Shown: piece by piece, positions 45,117 through 51,151 of the stretch | How positions within the stretch are numbered: position 1 is the stretch's first letter | Layout: each line of letters opens with the position of its first letter | Assembly: GCF_001447355.1 (NCBI RefSeq) | Contig: NZ_JXBW01000005.1 | Location: 1-64,000, forward strand | Length of the DNA stretch: 64,000 bases | DNA from: Alicyclobacillus tolerans | GTDB taxonomy: Bacteria; Bacillota; Bacilli; Alicyclobacillales; Alicyclobacillaceae | Reading direction: 5' to 3' | The notes under the pieces: model-generated | Seen by the model: only the letters and a program-made list of their open reading frames with translations | Databases searched by the model: none | Told to the model about the DNA's origin: nothing | Made by a program: the position numbers and the translations under genes

Positions 45117-45288
45117 CGCAAATGGCCGAGCGTCACTGAATAGAAATAAGCGTTGATGACGCGGCGTTCGACAGCATGTGACGCACAGTCCTTGTTAGAC
45201 TGAAAGCCGCAGTATTCGCGACATGAACAATACGTCACAACATACAGTTGTTTCCGGTCAGATCGGACGCAGGATGGAGAGATGGCAG

Positions 45289-46245
45289 ATGCGCAAAACA
45301 TGGTGGACACGTTGTTTGTCAGCGGTGATTGCCGCTACGGTGTGGCTCACGCCTTGGGGCATGTCGGGAGACGACAGCGCCTCCTTACAACCCGTCCTTG
45401 CAGCCCAGACGACATCGACAAAGAGCGCATCAAGTGTCACGACCCACGCGACAAGTCACACAACCACCAAGCTCAAACAGGCAAACGTACCGCAACCGCC
45501 AAAACCAGTTGTTATTGCCATCGGATCGACAGGCAATGCGGCTCTTTGGATGAACGAAGCGATGGCGGAGTTAAATCTGCTGCCTTTGACGTTCAAACCA
45601 GCAAATGGCGAAGGCCCGCAAGCCGCGTGCAAGCAGCTCGAGCTTGCGCTTGCCGCCGGCACGTTGGCGCCAATAGCCGGCTCATGGTCATGGAAGACCG
45701 CCGAACCACAGAGCCTGGTGCAACTGTGGAACCCGAACCTTGCGTCAGCGATCACAGAAGGCGCCATCATGGCGTTTGAGTCCGCACATGGGCTCGCGGT
45801 GGACGGCATTGCAGGCCCACAGGTGGACAGCGCGTTGAAGCAGGCGTTGATCTCGGATCAGGCGGTTTCATTCCACCCCTATACGTATATCACAGTCAGT
45901 GAGGCACGACCGGAGACGCTGCGCGTCTGGCAAAACGGAAAAGTGGTCTTGACGACGCTCGCCAACACGGGTATTGCTGCTTCGCCAACTCCTATCGGAA
46001 CGTTCCCGGTATTTGCGCAATATCTTTCACAAGACATGCGCGGTAAGGATCCAAACGGCGTTCCCTACAATGACCCAGGTGTACCCTATGTGAGCTACTT
46101 TAATGGAGGCTGCGCCATCCACGGCTTCGTTCGCGCTGACTATGGCTATCCGCAAAGCCTTGGCTGTGTCGAATTGCCGCTCAGCATTGCAGGAAAGGTG
46201 TTCTCATACATCCATATTGGTACGCTCGTCACCATCCAAAGCTAG
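45289..46245 (+). CDS. L,D-transpeptidase (YkuD family), exported
   Basis: The 318-residue protein forms or remodels 3-3 peptidoglycan cross-links. A signal sequence (WTRCLSAVIAATVWLTPWG) is followed by a Thr/Ser-rich linker, a peptidoglycan-binding region (about 110-190: LWNPNLASAITEGAIMAF and GLAVDGIAGPQVDSALKQ) and the YkuD domain with the catalytic His and Cys in CAIHGF and SLGCVELP. The ATG at 45289 follows GGAGAG; earlier ATGs lack a good RBS. It sits beside a membrane glycosyltransferase. Peptide cross-linking in wall or cortex is likely. Confidence 0.88.
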   Translation: MRKTWWTRCLSAVIAATVWLTPWGMSGDDSASLQPVLAAQTTSTKSASSVTTHATSHTTTKLKQANVPQPPKPVVIAIGSTGNAALWMNEAMAELNLLPLTFKPANGEGPQAACKQLELALAAGTLAPIAGSWSWKTAEPQSLVQLWNPNLASAITEGAIMAFESAHGLAVDGIAGPQVDSALKQALISDQAVSFHPYTYITVSEARPETLRVWQNGKVVLTTLANTGIAASPTPIGTFPVFAQYLSQDMRGKDPNGVPYNDPGVPYVSYFNGGCAIHGFVRADYGYPQSLGCVELPLSIAGKVFSYIHIGTLVTIQS

Positions 46246-46281: not shown

Positions 46282-46341
46282 GGGCACAATCTCTTTCAAG
46301 ATTTGCAACGTAAAGGTGTCTATACGTTCAAGGAGCTCATG

Positions 46342-47844
46342 ATGACCAAAACGACCCTTGCCTACGGCCAGCCGAGCAATGAGATAGATCATCAAAAACG
46401 TCTCGACTGGCCGTTGTCTGCATTACTTTTCATCTCTATCTTGATACATCTGCCCACTCTTAACATGCCGCTTATTTCTATTGACGCCTGGCGGCAAACG
46501 GACGAAGAGAGTATTGTCTACCACTTTGTACATAACTCGATGAACATCCTCCATCCTGCTGTCTTTTACGATGGTCTGGGCCCTCAGCGCGTACAACTCG
46601 AACTACAAATCATACCTTGGCTCACAGCCTGCTTGGTGCACGTTCTCGGTTGGCATATATGGCTTCTCCACCTCATTCCAGACGCCTGTTTTAGCTGCAA
46701 CGTATGGTTATGCTATCGAGTGGCCCGCGCCTTCTCTGCACCCATCGGCATTGCCCGCACGGCAGCGGCCGTGTACCTGCTGATTCCCTATGACATCTAC
46801 TATGGACAAGCCCTCATGCCAGAAGTGGTGATGACCACGGGCATGTTGCTTGCCGTGTGGTCCACACTCTGCTACGCAAAAAAGCCCACCTGGGGAAGAG
46901 CAATTCTAACTGGACTCGCCATCTGCCTGATGTTGCTTGCGAAACTCCCATCCGCGACCGTTCTTCCAGCCTTAGCGGTTGTCGTCATCGGACAACAAGG
47001 TTTCAGCATCCTTGCCCGCGCACGGACTTGGGTACCCGTCTTCTTCGCCATTGCCATCACCTGGCTGTACACCGCGTACGAAGGCAAGCAGGCCGCACAC
47101 GCATTCATCACAGGCGATACACATGCCTATTTGCTACAACACCTTGGCGACGTCTTTCATCCACAAACGTATCTGCACGCAGGTTGGTTTGGGGCGACGA
47201 CAGCCGTCGGCCTCGCCGTCGCGGCAGCCGCTTTATATGGCTGTTTTTGTGCATGCCCCAACGCCCTTGCCCCGTTTCGCCAAGCCTTTGTAGCCTGGCT
47301 GAGCGGCGCTTTTCTCTTCACCGCCTGGGTCGCTACACACAATGCCTTGCATTACTACTACATCGTTCTCACCGTGCCGGCCGCGATGCTCGCCAGCTTG
47401 GGTATATGGCAATTGTGGCGATCCCGCCGCCTGCCATTGCGCGCGATGGCTGCTGCCATCGTCTGTGGCGCTGTGACGATAAGCGTTGTGGCAACTCCGA
47501 CTTACTATCAGCCTGCAGAAGCGCCCGCGTATCGGCTTGGAAGACAGTTGCAGGCCGAGCTTCCCGCCAACGAAGGCATTGCGCTCGCCGCATCAAGTCC
47601 CATTCTGTTTGACTATGCGAAACGGGGCGGTTGGCGCTGGTACGGCGGCGACAAAACCGCCGCCTATGCACAGTGGCTGCAGCAGAAGTGGAAAATCGGT
47701 GCGGGTGTCGCCGTGATCGAAGACCCTAGGTCATATCCGGACTTATCCGAGTGGCTCAAGAAGCAATACGGCACGCAAATCCGCGATGGCCATCTGCTGG
47801 CTTGGCTGCCGCCGCGTGGAATGACGAAGGACGGCCACGCTTAA
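46342..47844 (+). CDS. Polytopic membrane glycosyltransferase (PMT/ArnT-like, GT-C fold)
   Basis: The 500-residue protein has about ten transmembrane helices and the GT-C pattern: an acidic pair in the first extracytoplasmic loop (SIDAWRQTDEESIVYHF) and IPYDIYYGQALMPEV further on. Such enzymes transfer a sugar from a polyprenyl-phosphate donor to an extracytoplasmic acceptor. The acceptor is unknown. AAGGAG 6 nt before the ATG at 46342 sets the start. The C-terminal soluble part (about 400-500) is periplasmic-like. It follows the L,D-transpeptidase gene. Confidence 0.8.
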   Translation: MTKTTLAYGQPSNEIDHQKRLDWPLSALLFISILIHLPTLNMPLISIDAWRQTDEESIVYHFVHNSMNILHPAVFYDGLGPQRVQLELQIIPWLTACLVHVLGWHIWLLHLIPDACFSCNVWLCYRVARAFSAPIGIARTAAAVYLLIPYDIYYGQALMPEVVMTTGMLLAVWSTLCYAKKPTWGRAILTGLAICLMLLAKLPSATVLPALAVVVIGQQGFSILARARTWVPVFFAIAITWLYTAYEGKQAAHAFITGDTHAYLLQHLGDVFHPQTYLHAGWFGATTAVGLAVAAAALYGCFCACPNALAPFRQAFVAWLSGAFLFTAWVATHNALHYYYIVLTVPAAMLASLGIWQLWRSRRLPLRAMAAAIVCGAVTISVVATPTYYQPAEAPAYRLGRQLQAELPANEGIALAASSPILFDYAKRGGWRWYGGDKTAAYAQWLQQKWKIGAGVAVIEDPRSYPDLSEWLKKQYGTQIRDGHLLAWLPPRGMTKDGHA

Positions 47845-47919: not shown

Positions 47920-49455
47920 ATGCCCAATCGCCACCGCCGCCCAGATCCAACAGAAGCCTTACAACGCCTTGGCGTCCCTCGCGAAGTCGCAGAACTGTGT
48001 GAGCTGCCCGGCGTCGGCCCGAAGATTGCCGCCGACTTATATCGCCGTCATCGCATTGCAACGCTCGAAGGTTTGGCGGAAGCTCTGAACCGTTCGCCGC
48101 GGACATTCCAGTCCTATGGTCACAACACCGTCGATCGCTGGCAACGAGATCTCCCTGTCCTACTCGAACGTCGCCACAGCTGGCCCATCGCCCTCGCCGC
48201 TCCGCAAGCAGACGCCATCTGTGCAGAATTGGCGAACCCCCCCGGTGTCACGGCTGTATCCGTCACCGGCAGCGTGCGACGCCTTGCGGCCATGAATCGG
48301 TGTATCGAACTCGTGGTTGCATGTGCGGATCGATCCGCCCTTGATGCGTGGTGCCAGAAGGCTGGAGCTGTGACACGCATGCCTGCCGATTATCCATCGG
48401 CCATCGCAACCATCCACTGCACGGCAGGCCGTGGTGCGGACGAATTGCCGGTACGGATCCACGTCGCATTGCCGGAGGCGTTTGCGGCGGCACTGTTGCA
48501 AAGCACCGGCGATCCGACTCACGTCGAAGTCGTCACGAAACTTTTGGCAGAGGCCGCTTTGACATGGAGCGAAGTGGGACTTATGCATCGCGAAACAGAA
48601 TCCATTCCGATTGCGTCTGAGGCGGAACTATACGCCCGCATTGGCTTGCCCTGGTTGCCGCCTGAGCTGCGAGAAGGCGAAAGCATGCTGCAATCGCCGT
48701 CCTTCCTCATACAGCAAACGGATATTCGCGGCGATTTGCACATGCACAGCACGTGGAGCGACGGCTCGCTGACCATTGCCGAATTGGCAGAGACCGCCGA
48801 ACGCATGGGCTACGAGTATATCGCTGTGACGGATCACTCGCAGTCGCTCACCATCGCCCATGGCTTGACACCGGATGATTTGCGGCGTCAACGCGGCGAG
48901 ATCGAACAAGTGCGCCGGCGCGCCAAAGTCCGTATCTTGCACGGCTCGGAAGTCGACATTCTGGCGGACGGAAGGCTCGACTTCCCTGATGAGGTGCTTG
49001 CCGATCTCGACATCGTGATCGCCTCCATCCACACCGTGTTCACGCAATCGCGCGATACGATGACGCGGCGCATCCTGCGCGCTTTGGCGAATCCATACGT
49101 GCACATCTTGGCCCACATGCATGGCCGGCTGATTGGCAAGCGGTCCGGCTACGCGGTCGACACGGAACAGGTGCTTGCATCTGCAGCGCGCCATGGCGTG
49201 ATGATTGAGCTAAATGCCAATCCAAATCGCCTTGACATCTGGGATGAATGGATTCGCAAGGCGGTGAAGCTTGGTATTGCTATCCCCATCGACACGGATG
49301 CGCACGAGCCCGGCGAGATGAATAACATCACTTATGGCGTCCGCATGGGTATCCGGGGGTGGCTACCCAAGGCCCAAGTGCCCAATACCTTGTCCTATGC
49401 AGAGCTTAAACAGCGACTCGACGCGCGACGGATGCAGGCATCGGTCAAAAGATAG
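47920..49455 (+). CDS. PolX-like protein with intact PHP domain and degenerate polymerase domain
   Basis: Bacterial PolX is a family X repair polymerase fused to a PHP exonuclease. Here the N-terminal 8-kDa domain is mostly missing; the 511-residue protein begins near the helix-hairpin-helix LPGVGPKIAADLY (about 29-41). The polymerase motif GSxRR is kept (117-121), but the GDxD that should follow reads RCIE (127-130) and the third carboxylate position reads RIHV (179-182), so the metal site is gone. The PHP domain is complete: DLHMHSTWSDG (273-282), TDHSQSL, HGSEVDI, SIHT, AHMHGR and DTDAHEPGEM. It may act as a nuclease or phosphoesterase only. GGAGGTA precedes the ATG. Confidence 0.85.
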   Translation: MPNRHRRPDPTEALQRLGVPREVAELCELPGVGPKIAADLYRRHRIATLEGLAEALNRSPRTFQSYGHNTVDRWQRDLPVLLERRHSWPIALAAPQADAICAELANPPGVTAVSVTGSVRRLAAMNRCIELVVACADRSALDAWCQKAGAVTRMPADYPSAIATIHCTAGRGADELPVRIHVALPEAFAAALLQSTGDPTHVEVVTKLLAEAALTWSEVGLMHRETESIPIASEAELYARIGLPWLPPELREGESMLQSPSFLIQQTDIRGDLHMHSTWSDGSLTIAELAETAERMGYEYIAVTDHSQSLTIAHGLTPDDLRRQRGEIEQVRRRAKVRILHGSEVDILADGRLDFPDEVLADLDIVIASIHTVFTQSRDTMTRRILRALANPYVHILAHMHGRLIGKRSGYAVDTEQVLASAARHGVMIELNANPNRLDIWDEWIRKAVKLGIAIPIDTDAHEPGEMNNITYGVRMGIRGWLPKAQVPNTLSYAELKQRLDARRMQASVKR

Positions 49456-49589
49456 ATGCAGTTGATCACAAAGGTGTGGCAGATGTCCGAATTTCGCATG
49501 ATAGCTCCTGACCTGCAGATGGAAAACCTGTAGACTAGCAGTTGTGAGCCGCCAACAGCGGATAGACAACGAAGCTAGGGGGCTTTGTG

Positions 49590-49871
49590 ATGAAGTTCGT
49601 ATACTGGGTGATTGCCGTTATCATCATCATCGGAGGTTGTCTGTGGCTATTTAACTGGTTGCGCAGGTCCGACAGGCCAAGCGATGACTATTTTGCATTA
49701 CTCGAAAAGTTGCAGGCTCGTCCCGACGACAATGCCTTACGAGAACAAATTTATGCAGTAGGCCGCAAGTTCTACAAAAACCGAATGAGTGGAATTGACG
49801 ATGCCATTCAAATGGATGTCGATCTCGCTTTGCGCGGGGAACTCAAAATGCCTGTCGACGACAGGTACTGA
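49590..49871 (+). CDS. Small membrane protein, 93 aa
   Basis: One N-terminal transmembrane helix (FVYWVIAVIIIIGGCLWLF) is followed by a soluble helical part (DDYFALLEKLQARPDDNALREQIYAVG) and KFYKNRMSGID. AGGGGG lies 7 nt before the ATG at 49590. It is monocistronic and convergent with the spore coat cluster. No family recognised; the C-terminal part looks like a short all-helical cytoplasmic domain. Confidence 0.72.
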   Translation: MKFVYWVIAVIIIIGGCLWLFNWLRRSDRPSDDYFALLEKLQARPDDNALREQIYAVGRKFYKNRMSGIDDAIQMDVDLALRGELKMPVDDRY

Positions 49872-49926: not shown

Positions 49927-50463
49927 TCAGGCCACTTCCAGTTTGGCGACAATAGCCGCCAACACTTGCAGCAGCAACTGTAGCTGGACGGCCAGCTCCG
50001 TTGCAACCACCTGAACGCGCACTGCATACGCGTTGTCGACGCGAATCACGCGGCGAATCCGCTGTGCTGTGCAGATCCGTGCGAGCAGGTCTTCCGTCAC
50101 CTGCGAAGCCGCGTTCCCATCAGCGACGGACACGCTGAGAACAATCGCCAAGGCTAATTCAAGAGCAGCTTGCAGCGATAGAGCCGCTTGCAAGTCGTGG
50201 CTGTTAATTTCGACGTTTGCCGAGTCTTTTACAATGATGTCTAGAATGGAAGACTCGTTGTCGTCGATTTCGAGAATCGCATTCTGTGCGATGCCGGGAT
50301 CCCCTAATGGCAATTCGGCCTGCGGCAACTCGCACGACTTGTCGACGTCGTAGTCAAAATCCGATGCCATAGGGCGAACCGTTGTGCGTCCTGCGTTAAG
50401 CAGCGGCATACGGTTGTCATGTCGCCGACGCCGGACATGCCGGTGTTTGTTTTTCCCCTTCAC
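49927..50463 (-). CDS. CotX/CotV-like spore coat protein
   Basis: The 178-residue protein has a very basic, His-rich N-terminus (MKGKNKHRHVRRRRHDN) and two copies of the CotX/CotV domain pattern: NVEINSHDLQAALSLQAALE-type and VRVQVVATELAVQLQLLLQV. In Bacillus these proteins build the outermost spore crust. The GTG at 50463 was chosen for AAGGAGG 9 nt upstream. It overlaps the end of the 78-aa gene (GTGA), so the pair is translationally coupled. Confidence 0.82.
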   Translation of the reverse strand: MKGKNKHRHVRRRRHDNRMPLLNAGRTTVRPMASDFDYDVDKSCELPQAELPLGDPGIAQNAILEIDDNESSILDIIVKDSANVEINSHDLQAALSLQAALELALAIVLSVSVADGNAASQVTEDLLARICTAQRIRRVIRVDNAYAVRVQVVATELAVQLQLLLQVLAAIVAKLEVA

Positions 50464-50696
50464 AGAACAATGCCTCCTTCTTGGCCGTTTGCGCGGCCCT
50501 CGACGAGGGTCTGCTTCTGGAACGCCCAAACAAGCCGCCTTCTAGGTTTCGTTTCGCTCCCCGCGGTGGACGCTGCAGGATCCGTTTCCTCTGCATTGGA
50601 CCCCTGCATTCCCATGCGTGCCATGGCGTCGCGATATGCCTCTTCCAATACAGCGCGGATGCGCTCCAGCCGCTGGTTGGGTTCCGCTTCGTGCAT
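50460..50696 (-). CDS. Hypothetical protein in the spore crust operon, 78 aa
   Basis: The protein starts MHEAEPNQRLERIRAVLEEA with a predicted helix, then an Ala/Thr/Ser/Gly linker, and a basic segment (ETKPRRRLVWAFQKQTLVEG) near the end. GGAGGGGAG precedes the ATG. It lies between the two CotX-like genes and overlaps the second one. No family recognised; a spore coat role is inferred from context. Confidence 0.65.
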   Translation of the reverse strand: MHEAEPNQRLERIRAVLEEAYRDAMARMGMQGSNAEETDPAASTAGSETKPRRRLVWAFQKQTLVEGRANGQEGGIVL

Positions 50697-50713: not shown

Positions 50714-51151
50714 TCACAGGATTTCAAGCTTTGCAATGAGCGCCAAAAGCACTTGCAGCAGCACTTGGATATTGACACTTGCTTCCGTTGCCGTCGCTGT
50801 GACCGTTACATTGCGGGAATTCTCGATGACGGTGCGTTGTTTAATGCTCTGGCGAGTCCGGATTCGTTCAAGCAAGTCCTGCGCGATGTTGTTGGCTTCA
50901 TTGCCATCGGCGATCGCGATGCTCAACACGAGTGCAATAGCCAATTGAATGGCCACCTGGAGATTTACGGCCGCCTGTGTGTCGACCGTGGTGACGGTAA
51001 TTTCACACGAGTCCTTAATCAGAATGTGCTCATCGTTGAGCTGCTCTGTGCGAGCCGATTCCGTCGCTCCCTGTGAGACCCCGCCAAGTGTTGTAGCACA
51101 TGGATGTGCCTGTTGTGGATCGAGTGCAGACCAAGTTGTGTTGGTTGCCAA
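50714..51151 (-). CDS. CotX/CotV-like spore coat protein
   Basis: A 145-residue protein with two repeats of the CotX/CotV domain: ITVTTVDTQAAVNLQVAIQL and VTVTATATEASVNIQVLLQV, each followed by a Leu/Ala-rich helix. These proteins are insoluble crust components in Bacillus. The start is TTG, with AAGGAGTG 9 nt upstream. A sigma-K-like promoter lies 30 nt before it. Confidence 0.85.
   Translation of the reverse strand: MATNTTWSALDPQQAHPCATTLGGVSQGATESARTEQLNDEHILIKDSCEITVTTVDTQAAVNLQVAIQLAIALVLSIAIADGNEANNIAQDLLERIRTRQSIKQRTVIENSRNVTVTATATEASVNIQVLLQVLLALIAKLEIL

Follow-up and report, generated by a model that had tools for sequence, protein, structure and literature searches.

In bacterial PolX, the PHP nuclease is known to be more strictly conserved than the polymerase, and for the main PolX group of a 2026 survey conservation was reported at 95% for the PHP site and at 75% for the polymerase site (PMC12926913). 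In the parts of Prostova et al. (2022, PMC9226535) drawn on here, 809 PolX sequences (27.5%) are classed as noncanonical, with palm or fingers deletions in many members although not in all, and the PolX proteins of Deinococcus radiodurans and D. gobiensis are described as having no polymerase activity and an active Mn2+-dependent 3′–5′ exonuclease; polymerase activity had earlier been reported for the D. radiodurans enzyme, whose triad is AEE, a claim that is disputed there. The same source mentions small noncanonical groups in Firmicutes, and gives a full-length 8-kDa domain for 95.3% of PolX, which makes this domain usual, not obligatory. A full-text search of the open-licence PMC literature returned no paper on Alicyclobacillus together with PolX, the genus is not named in the main text of PMC9226535, and no biochemical assay of any PolX from the order was found in the literature.

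Here, a window of 64,000 nucleotides from Alicyclobacillus tolerans (order Alicyclobacillales, contig NZ_JXBW01000005.1) was analysed, in which a polX gene at 47920..49455 on the plus strand, the strand of all polX features below, was identified by its ORF and by profile and structure matches. Its 511-aa product consists of thumb, palm, fingers and PHP without an 8-kDa domain. PolX homology spans the palm, fingers and PHP by profile, sequence and fold comparison: the top NCBIfam match was the PolX model PRK08609 (E 9e-110, 368 bits, below its cut-off of 426), and the closest solved structures by both sequence and fold were T. thermophilus PolX (34% identity) and D. radiodurans PolX. An AlphaFold2 model, computed with the window protein and 30 relatives, reached a mean pLDDT of 89.1 and a pTM of 0.88. 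The protein has the same thumb–palm–fingers–PHP order and fold as canonical PolX (T. thermophilus, 3au2/3auo; B. subtilis) but is without the catalytic triad, the canonical dNTP contacts and the 8-kDa domain, whereas with noncanonical PolX such as that of D. radiodurans (PDB 2w9m) it shares an altered triad, a degenerate dNTP site and an intact HHHEHHEDH. The polymerase-region-free PolX-like proteins described in PMC12926913 have likewise kept the PHP nuclease and lost polymerase function; unlike them, the window protein is predicted by the model to retain folded thumb, palm and fingers.

Taken together, the loss of triad and dNTP residues, the kept PHP ligands and DNA path, the confident fold, the purifying selection and the order-wide loss make it very probable that the window protein is a noncanonical PolX, which would be incapable of polymerising DNA and would work through its PHP domain as a Mn2+-dependent 3′–5′ exonuclease or 3′-end processing enzyme; the absent polymerase and present exonuclease activities are what we infer from the named homologues. 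The nuclease-only repair factor proposed in the initial annotation is therefore well supported, in agreement with the sequence tests and with the Deinococcus biochemistry (PMC9226535), although, given the 809 altered sequences, it is not peculiar to this lineage. Indeed, the idea of a nuclease-only PolX was published in 2022, and the window protein is a fresh example with a shortened form and an order-specific motif. What it adds is an order in which every scored PolX has lost the polymerase site, including a short form without the 8-kDa domain, and which may serve as a natural test of what the nuclease owes to the dead core and to the 8-kDa domain; the known picture of PHP conservation is left unchanged.

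Residue counts below refer to 27 order rows (palm-bearing, window included), from which L065–L067, repeat genomes of L002, L004 and L014, were omitted, and the triad and PHP tables do not include the partial L045. They are compared with 96 outside rows, namely 19 from the class sample and 77 from the best 80 of 590 matches, among which L051 equals L071 in sequence and some MAG rows were assigned outside the order on the basis of tree position or of a label other than Alicyclobacillaceae.

The shortened N-terminus, possible gene decay and selection

The alignment to T. thermophilus PolX starts at residue 84 of the latter, with 13 residues of the window protein preceding the aligned part, so that the 8-kDa domain, initially annotated as mostly missing, is indeed lost, but wholly. 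The ORF starts at the earliest in-frame ATG, GTG or TTG, and since the stop-to-stop frame is only 536 aa, there is no room for the domain upstream. A hidden domain, in this frame or another, was rejected: only 25 codons are added upstream, with no start codon among them, and a gene for a PMT_2 membrane protein (46303-47844) ends 75 bases upstream. With N-terminal queries from relatives, the window was matched only at the helix-hairpin-helix at the extreme start of the ORF, except for one weak match (E 0.02) in the downstream coat-gene region; the same queries detected this domain in A. acidiphilus (L066), whereas the window, L003 and L065 gave none, and the residues added by a longer frame of L003 were unlike an 8-kDa domain. 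The protein therefore begins, after the first residues, with a thumb region at about aa 14–84 (47959..48171), whose helix-hairpin-helix was indicated by the Pfam HHH profile at aa 19–39, below cut-off (19.4 bits versus 24), and by the model helices. The PolX sequences of PMC9226535 are described as mostly having a full-length 8-kDa domain, in contrast to the window protein, and because of its absence DNA binding may differ from that of other PolX. In the sister family, the PolX proteins L040 (435 aa) and L041 (427 aa) had no recognisable 8-kDa domain and thumb and kept the PHP ligands.

In the family, 21 of the 41 genomes searched had a polX match; a full or near-full gene was counted in 17 of the 41 and not in the other 24. 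The 17 include G029 with a frame change, and exclude the fragments of G004 and G013 and the short stretches within other genes in G016 and G024. Including short PHP-only matches, polX was matched in 33/59 genomes of the order and 259/398 of the class sample. In two genomes of the same genus, only C-terminal polX stretches of 37 and 48 aa were left (L021 of G004 and L018 of G013, respectively; 62–65% identity to L005), suggesting gene decay within the genus. In A. tolerans BL-1 (L014; L067 5592-7320, same genome), polX appears broken in two by a change of frame around aa 142, which may be a sequencing error; a truncation of the A. tolerans gene was rejected, as the N-terminus is present in a different frame.

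Selection was gauged with dN/dS (Nei-Gojobori). For the window gene compared with L003, its 87% homologue, the ratios were 0.14 in the thumb, 0.10 in the palm, 0.10 in fingers and linker and 0.06 in the PHP domain (dS 0.7–1.2), and the palm value of about 0.10 implies that the dead palm is still held by selection. Five further order pairs gave palm ratios from 0.07 to 0.33 and a sixth pair 0.47, with PHP ratios of 0.06 to 0.12 where defined, compared with palm ratios of 0.17 and 0.30 (the two defined among three) and PHP ratios of 0.05–0.12 in canonical pairs. The dead palm is thus under constraint, strong in the window lineage, while two further order pairs show it more weakly than canonical pairs do. 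These data bear on the possibility that polX, having lost the polymerase and the 8-kDa domain, is losing all importance. The full gene in only 17 of 41 family genomes, the same-genus remnants, the BL-1 parts in different frames, the two sister-family genera with shortened proteins and a palm ratio of 1.4 in the 99% pair L001/L002, which comes from just 5 changes, too few to read, would all agree with such decay; however, the window gene has an open frame with none of the nine PHP ligands lost, the order rows all show a complete PHP motif, and the ratios against the 87% homologue are low in both PHP domain and dead palm, making decay quite unlikely.

The polymerase site and the PHP nuclease

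In a phmmer alignment with T. thermophilus PolX, GDLD and VDL of the latter stood opposite RCIE and VRI, and the catalytic Asp positions were occupied by C128, E130 and R179 (triad positions 1 and 2, aa 128–130, C-I-E versus D-x-D, 48301..48309; position 3, R replacing D, 48454..48456). The loss of the polymerase carboxylates and the intact GSVRR motif at aa 117–121 (48268..48282; aligned in the order rows), both noted in the initial annotation, were thereby corroborated, with the nuance that, position 2 being Glu, one carboxylate of three is retained, with which some residual metal binding might conceivably persist. Rather than the three acidic residues by which canonical PolX is recognised, the protein carries an altered triad of the noncanonical kind. 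In two further genomes, copies of 99% and 87% identity read C, E and L at positions 1, 2 and 3, so the altered triad is not an error of a single assembly; the nearest named genome among the matches listed was Alicyclobacillus hesperidum DSM 12489, with a 99% identical polX. A second, intact polX, raised in the initial annotation, did not appear, the genome (99.79% complete) giving one polX match only.

Across the order, an all-acidic triad was found in 0/27 rows versus 88/96 outside rows (77 of these 96 from the best 80 of 590 matches). Position 128 was Asp in none and Glu in 3/27, position 130 was E or D in 23/27, and position 179 was never acidic, while G117 and R121 were present in all 27 rows and R120 in 25. 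The dNTP pocket at aa 194–202 (48499..48525) reads QSTGDPTHV (HFTGSKEHN in 14 of the 19 class loci that lie outside the order), and its steric gate, Gly-Ser, Lys and Asn are all changed: the canonical contacts K199 and N202 are P and V in the window protein, and were retained in only 1/27 and 3/27 order rows, respectively. At the former Gly-Ser site, position 198 was Asp in 26/27 order rows and Ser in 95/96 outside rows (77 from the best 80 of 590 matches), and the resulting GD of 26/27 order rows differs from the GN, AS and AA named in PMC9226535. A scan of aa 85–210 in the 27 order rows for alignment columns with at least 60% D/E within the order revealed no conserved new acid in the palm (conserved Asp residues there would, according to the initial annotation, have refuted its reading) and D198 alone in the fingers.

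The conserved acid 130 and D198, together with the near-invariant G117, R120 and R121, point to a constrained site, and it might be supposed that E130 and D198 or other acids bind metal and that the palm performs a residual or new nucleotidyl transfer. Yet position 179 is acidic nowhere in the order and position 128 in just three rows, the dNTP contacts have been replaced, and a structural role of E130 and D198 would explain their conservation more simply, so we regard such a reaction as extremely unlikely. An E130–R179 pair cannot be essential, since the closest relatives have L179.

The PHP nuclease domain extends over about aa 267–505 (48718..49434) by profile, alignment and model; the Pfam matches were PHP at aa 272–406 and, at aa 191–252, DNA_pol_B_thumb, a segment that goes by the name of fingers in the PolX literature and in this text. 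All nine metal ligands are kept (H274, H276, H306, E344, H371, H399, E430, D460 and H462), as the initial annotation had stated, and HHHEHHEDH is complete in 27/27 order rows. The nuclease activities of B. subtilis PolX are reported to require R469, R474, N498, R503, K545 and F440 (PMC6616362), which, mapped by motif and a constant offset of 66 rather than on an aligned B. subtilis sequence, correspond to R403, R408, N432, R437, R479 and F374. The first four were kept in all 27 order rows and position 479 was R or K in 26, while position 374 was F in 7, including the window protein, and M or L in 20. By sequence, then, the PHP ligands and DNA-path residues match those of PolX exonucleases. That the domain might instead be a small-molecule phosphoesterase resembling histidinol phosphatase, the "new phosphoesterase" suggested at first, is barely conceivable, for although stand-alone PHP families appeared among the NCBIfam matches, all below cut-offs, and YcdX was the next structural match behind PolX, the PolX matches were by far the best (PRK08609, albeit under its cut-off; PolX of T. 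thermophilus and D. radiodurans), and the residues along the DNA path are retained.

As a noncanonical PolX, the window protein would have a catalytically dead palm and a C-terminal PHP domain trimming 3′ ends in the 3′–5′ direction with Mn2+, possibly processing AP sites too, while the remaining thumb, palm and fingers would form a folded scaffold, most likely for DNA or partner binding.

Phylogeny and age of the loss

All trees were quick and midpoint-rooted. In the full-length trees, the order rows formed one side of a branch with SH-aLRT of 100 (70 sequences, L002 omitted) and 99 (53 sequences, with alphaproteobacterial PolX added); 23 of the 27 order rows were used in the latter and in the PHP-only trees. 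In the PHP-only tree, built to exclude the altered palm, each of the two families was one clade (99 and 96), but the order was not one clade in the free quick search. In the full-length tree, the noncanonical alphaproteobacterial PolX proteins L149 and L150 were separate from the order; in the PHP-only tree they lay beside it, without support (fork 92, open), and because they sit there beside its families, that tree needs two changes for the order. A PHP-only topology with an undivided order improved on the free search by 17.8 log units and was not rejected (p-AU 0.83). The simplest reading is therefore one triad loss at or before the order ancestor, followed by many gene losses. This loss may be shared with other noncanonical PolX; as Bacteroidota and Deinococcus, the main noncanonical cluster, are absent from the trees, a common origin with that cluster may still hold.

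Two further proteins fetched as noncanonical alphaproteobacterial PolX (L147 and L148) proved to be canonical, with DDD. Among the matches listed, altered triads outside the order were seen in L062 (NND), L076 (QEE), L077 (KDE), L117 (KEE), L112 (NSD), L143 (NDD) and L105 and L141 (both DDQ), and those present in the tree sit on branches separate from the order.

Gene neighbourhood and repair context

Upstream of the window polX and the PMT_2 gene lies a YkuD L,D-transpeptidase gene (45223-46245), and downstream are a 94-aa ORF (49587-49871) and two spore coat X genes (49930-50529 and 50717-51151). In A. acidiphilus, polX likewise has transpeptidase, 94-aa ORF and coat X genes at its flanks, and in L005 and L008 coat X is found close to it. 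Canonical polX adjoins mutS2 in many Bacilli, and mutS2 started at most 1 kb downstream of polX in 48 of 96 outside loci (77 from the best 80 of 590 matches); in contrast, it was beside polX in 0/31 order loci (28 genomes; two loci with less than 1 kb downstream). The zapA, cvpA and mutS2 genes of the window's genome form a group without polX (L145 3885-5180), in which a holin superfamily IV gene on the other strand separates cvpA from mutS2.

A wider reading would join these observations: the core was rebuilt once, at or before the order ancestor, into a locked scaffold, marked by the mostly kept acid 130 and by D198, newly fixed where dNTP was once bound, which enabled the exit from the mutS2 operon and the 8-kDa loss, and polX resettled in Alicyclobacillus by spore-coat and L,D-transpeptidase genes as a spore-linked DNA end trimmer. 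As a whole we consider this improbable.

As for repair partners, Ku was detected in 37/41 family genomes and the LigD polymerase domain in 35/41, while the LigD nuclease domain was found in 0/41. The window's genome likewise has Ku, encoded on a different contig from polX, and the LigD polymerase domain, with no match to the LigD nuclease domain. According to PMC9226535, 11 of 12 genomes with Firmicutes noncanonical PolX have NHEJ without the LigD nuclease, and the window family matches this type, as its genome matches the NHEJ genes minus LigD nuclease that accompany noncanonical PolX. The noncanonical PolX of the window might accordingly be thought of, more tentatively than its nuclease function, as cleaning double-strand-break ends beside a Ku/LigD system that lacks the nuclease domain. 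Ku was present in 17/17 polX genomes versus 20/24 others (Fisher one-sided p = 0.105), and because 24 of 41 genomes have no full polX while 37 have Ku, co-occurrence does not indicate a strict end-joining tie; 20 of the 37 Ku-positive genomes are without full polX.

In Alphaproteobacteria, LigD is given as the commonest polX neighbour (PMC9226535), and on a plasmid of Bradyrhizobium sp. 195, typed as conjugative, an altered polX was observed two genes upstream of ligD (L150 1746-4951).
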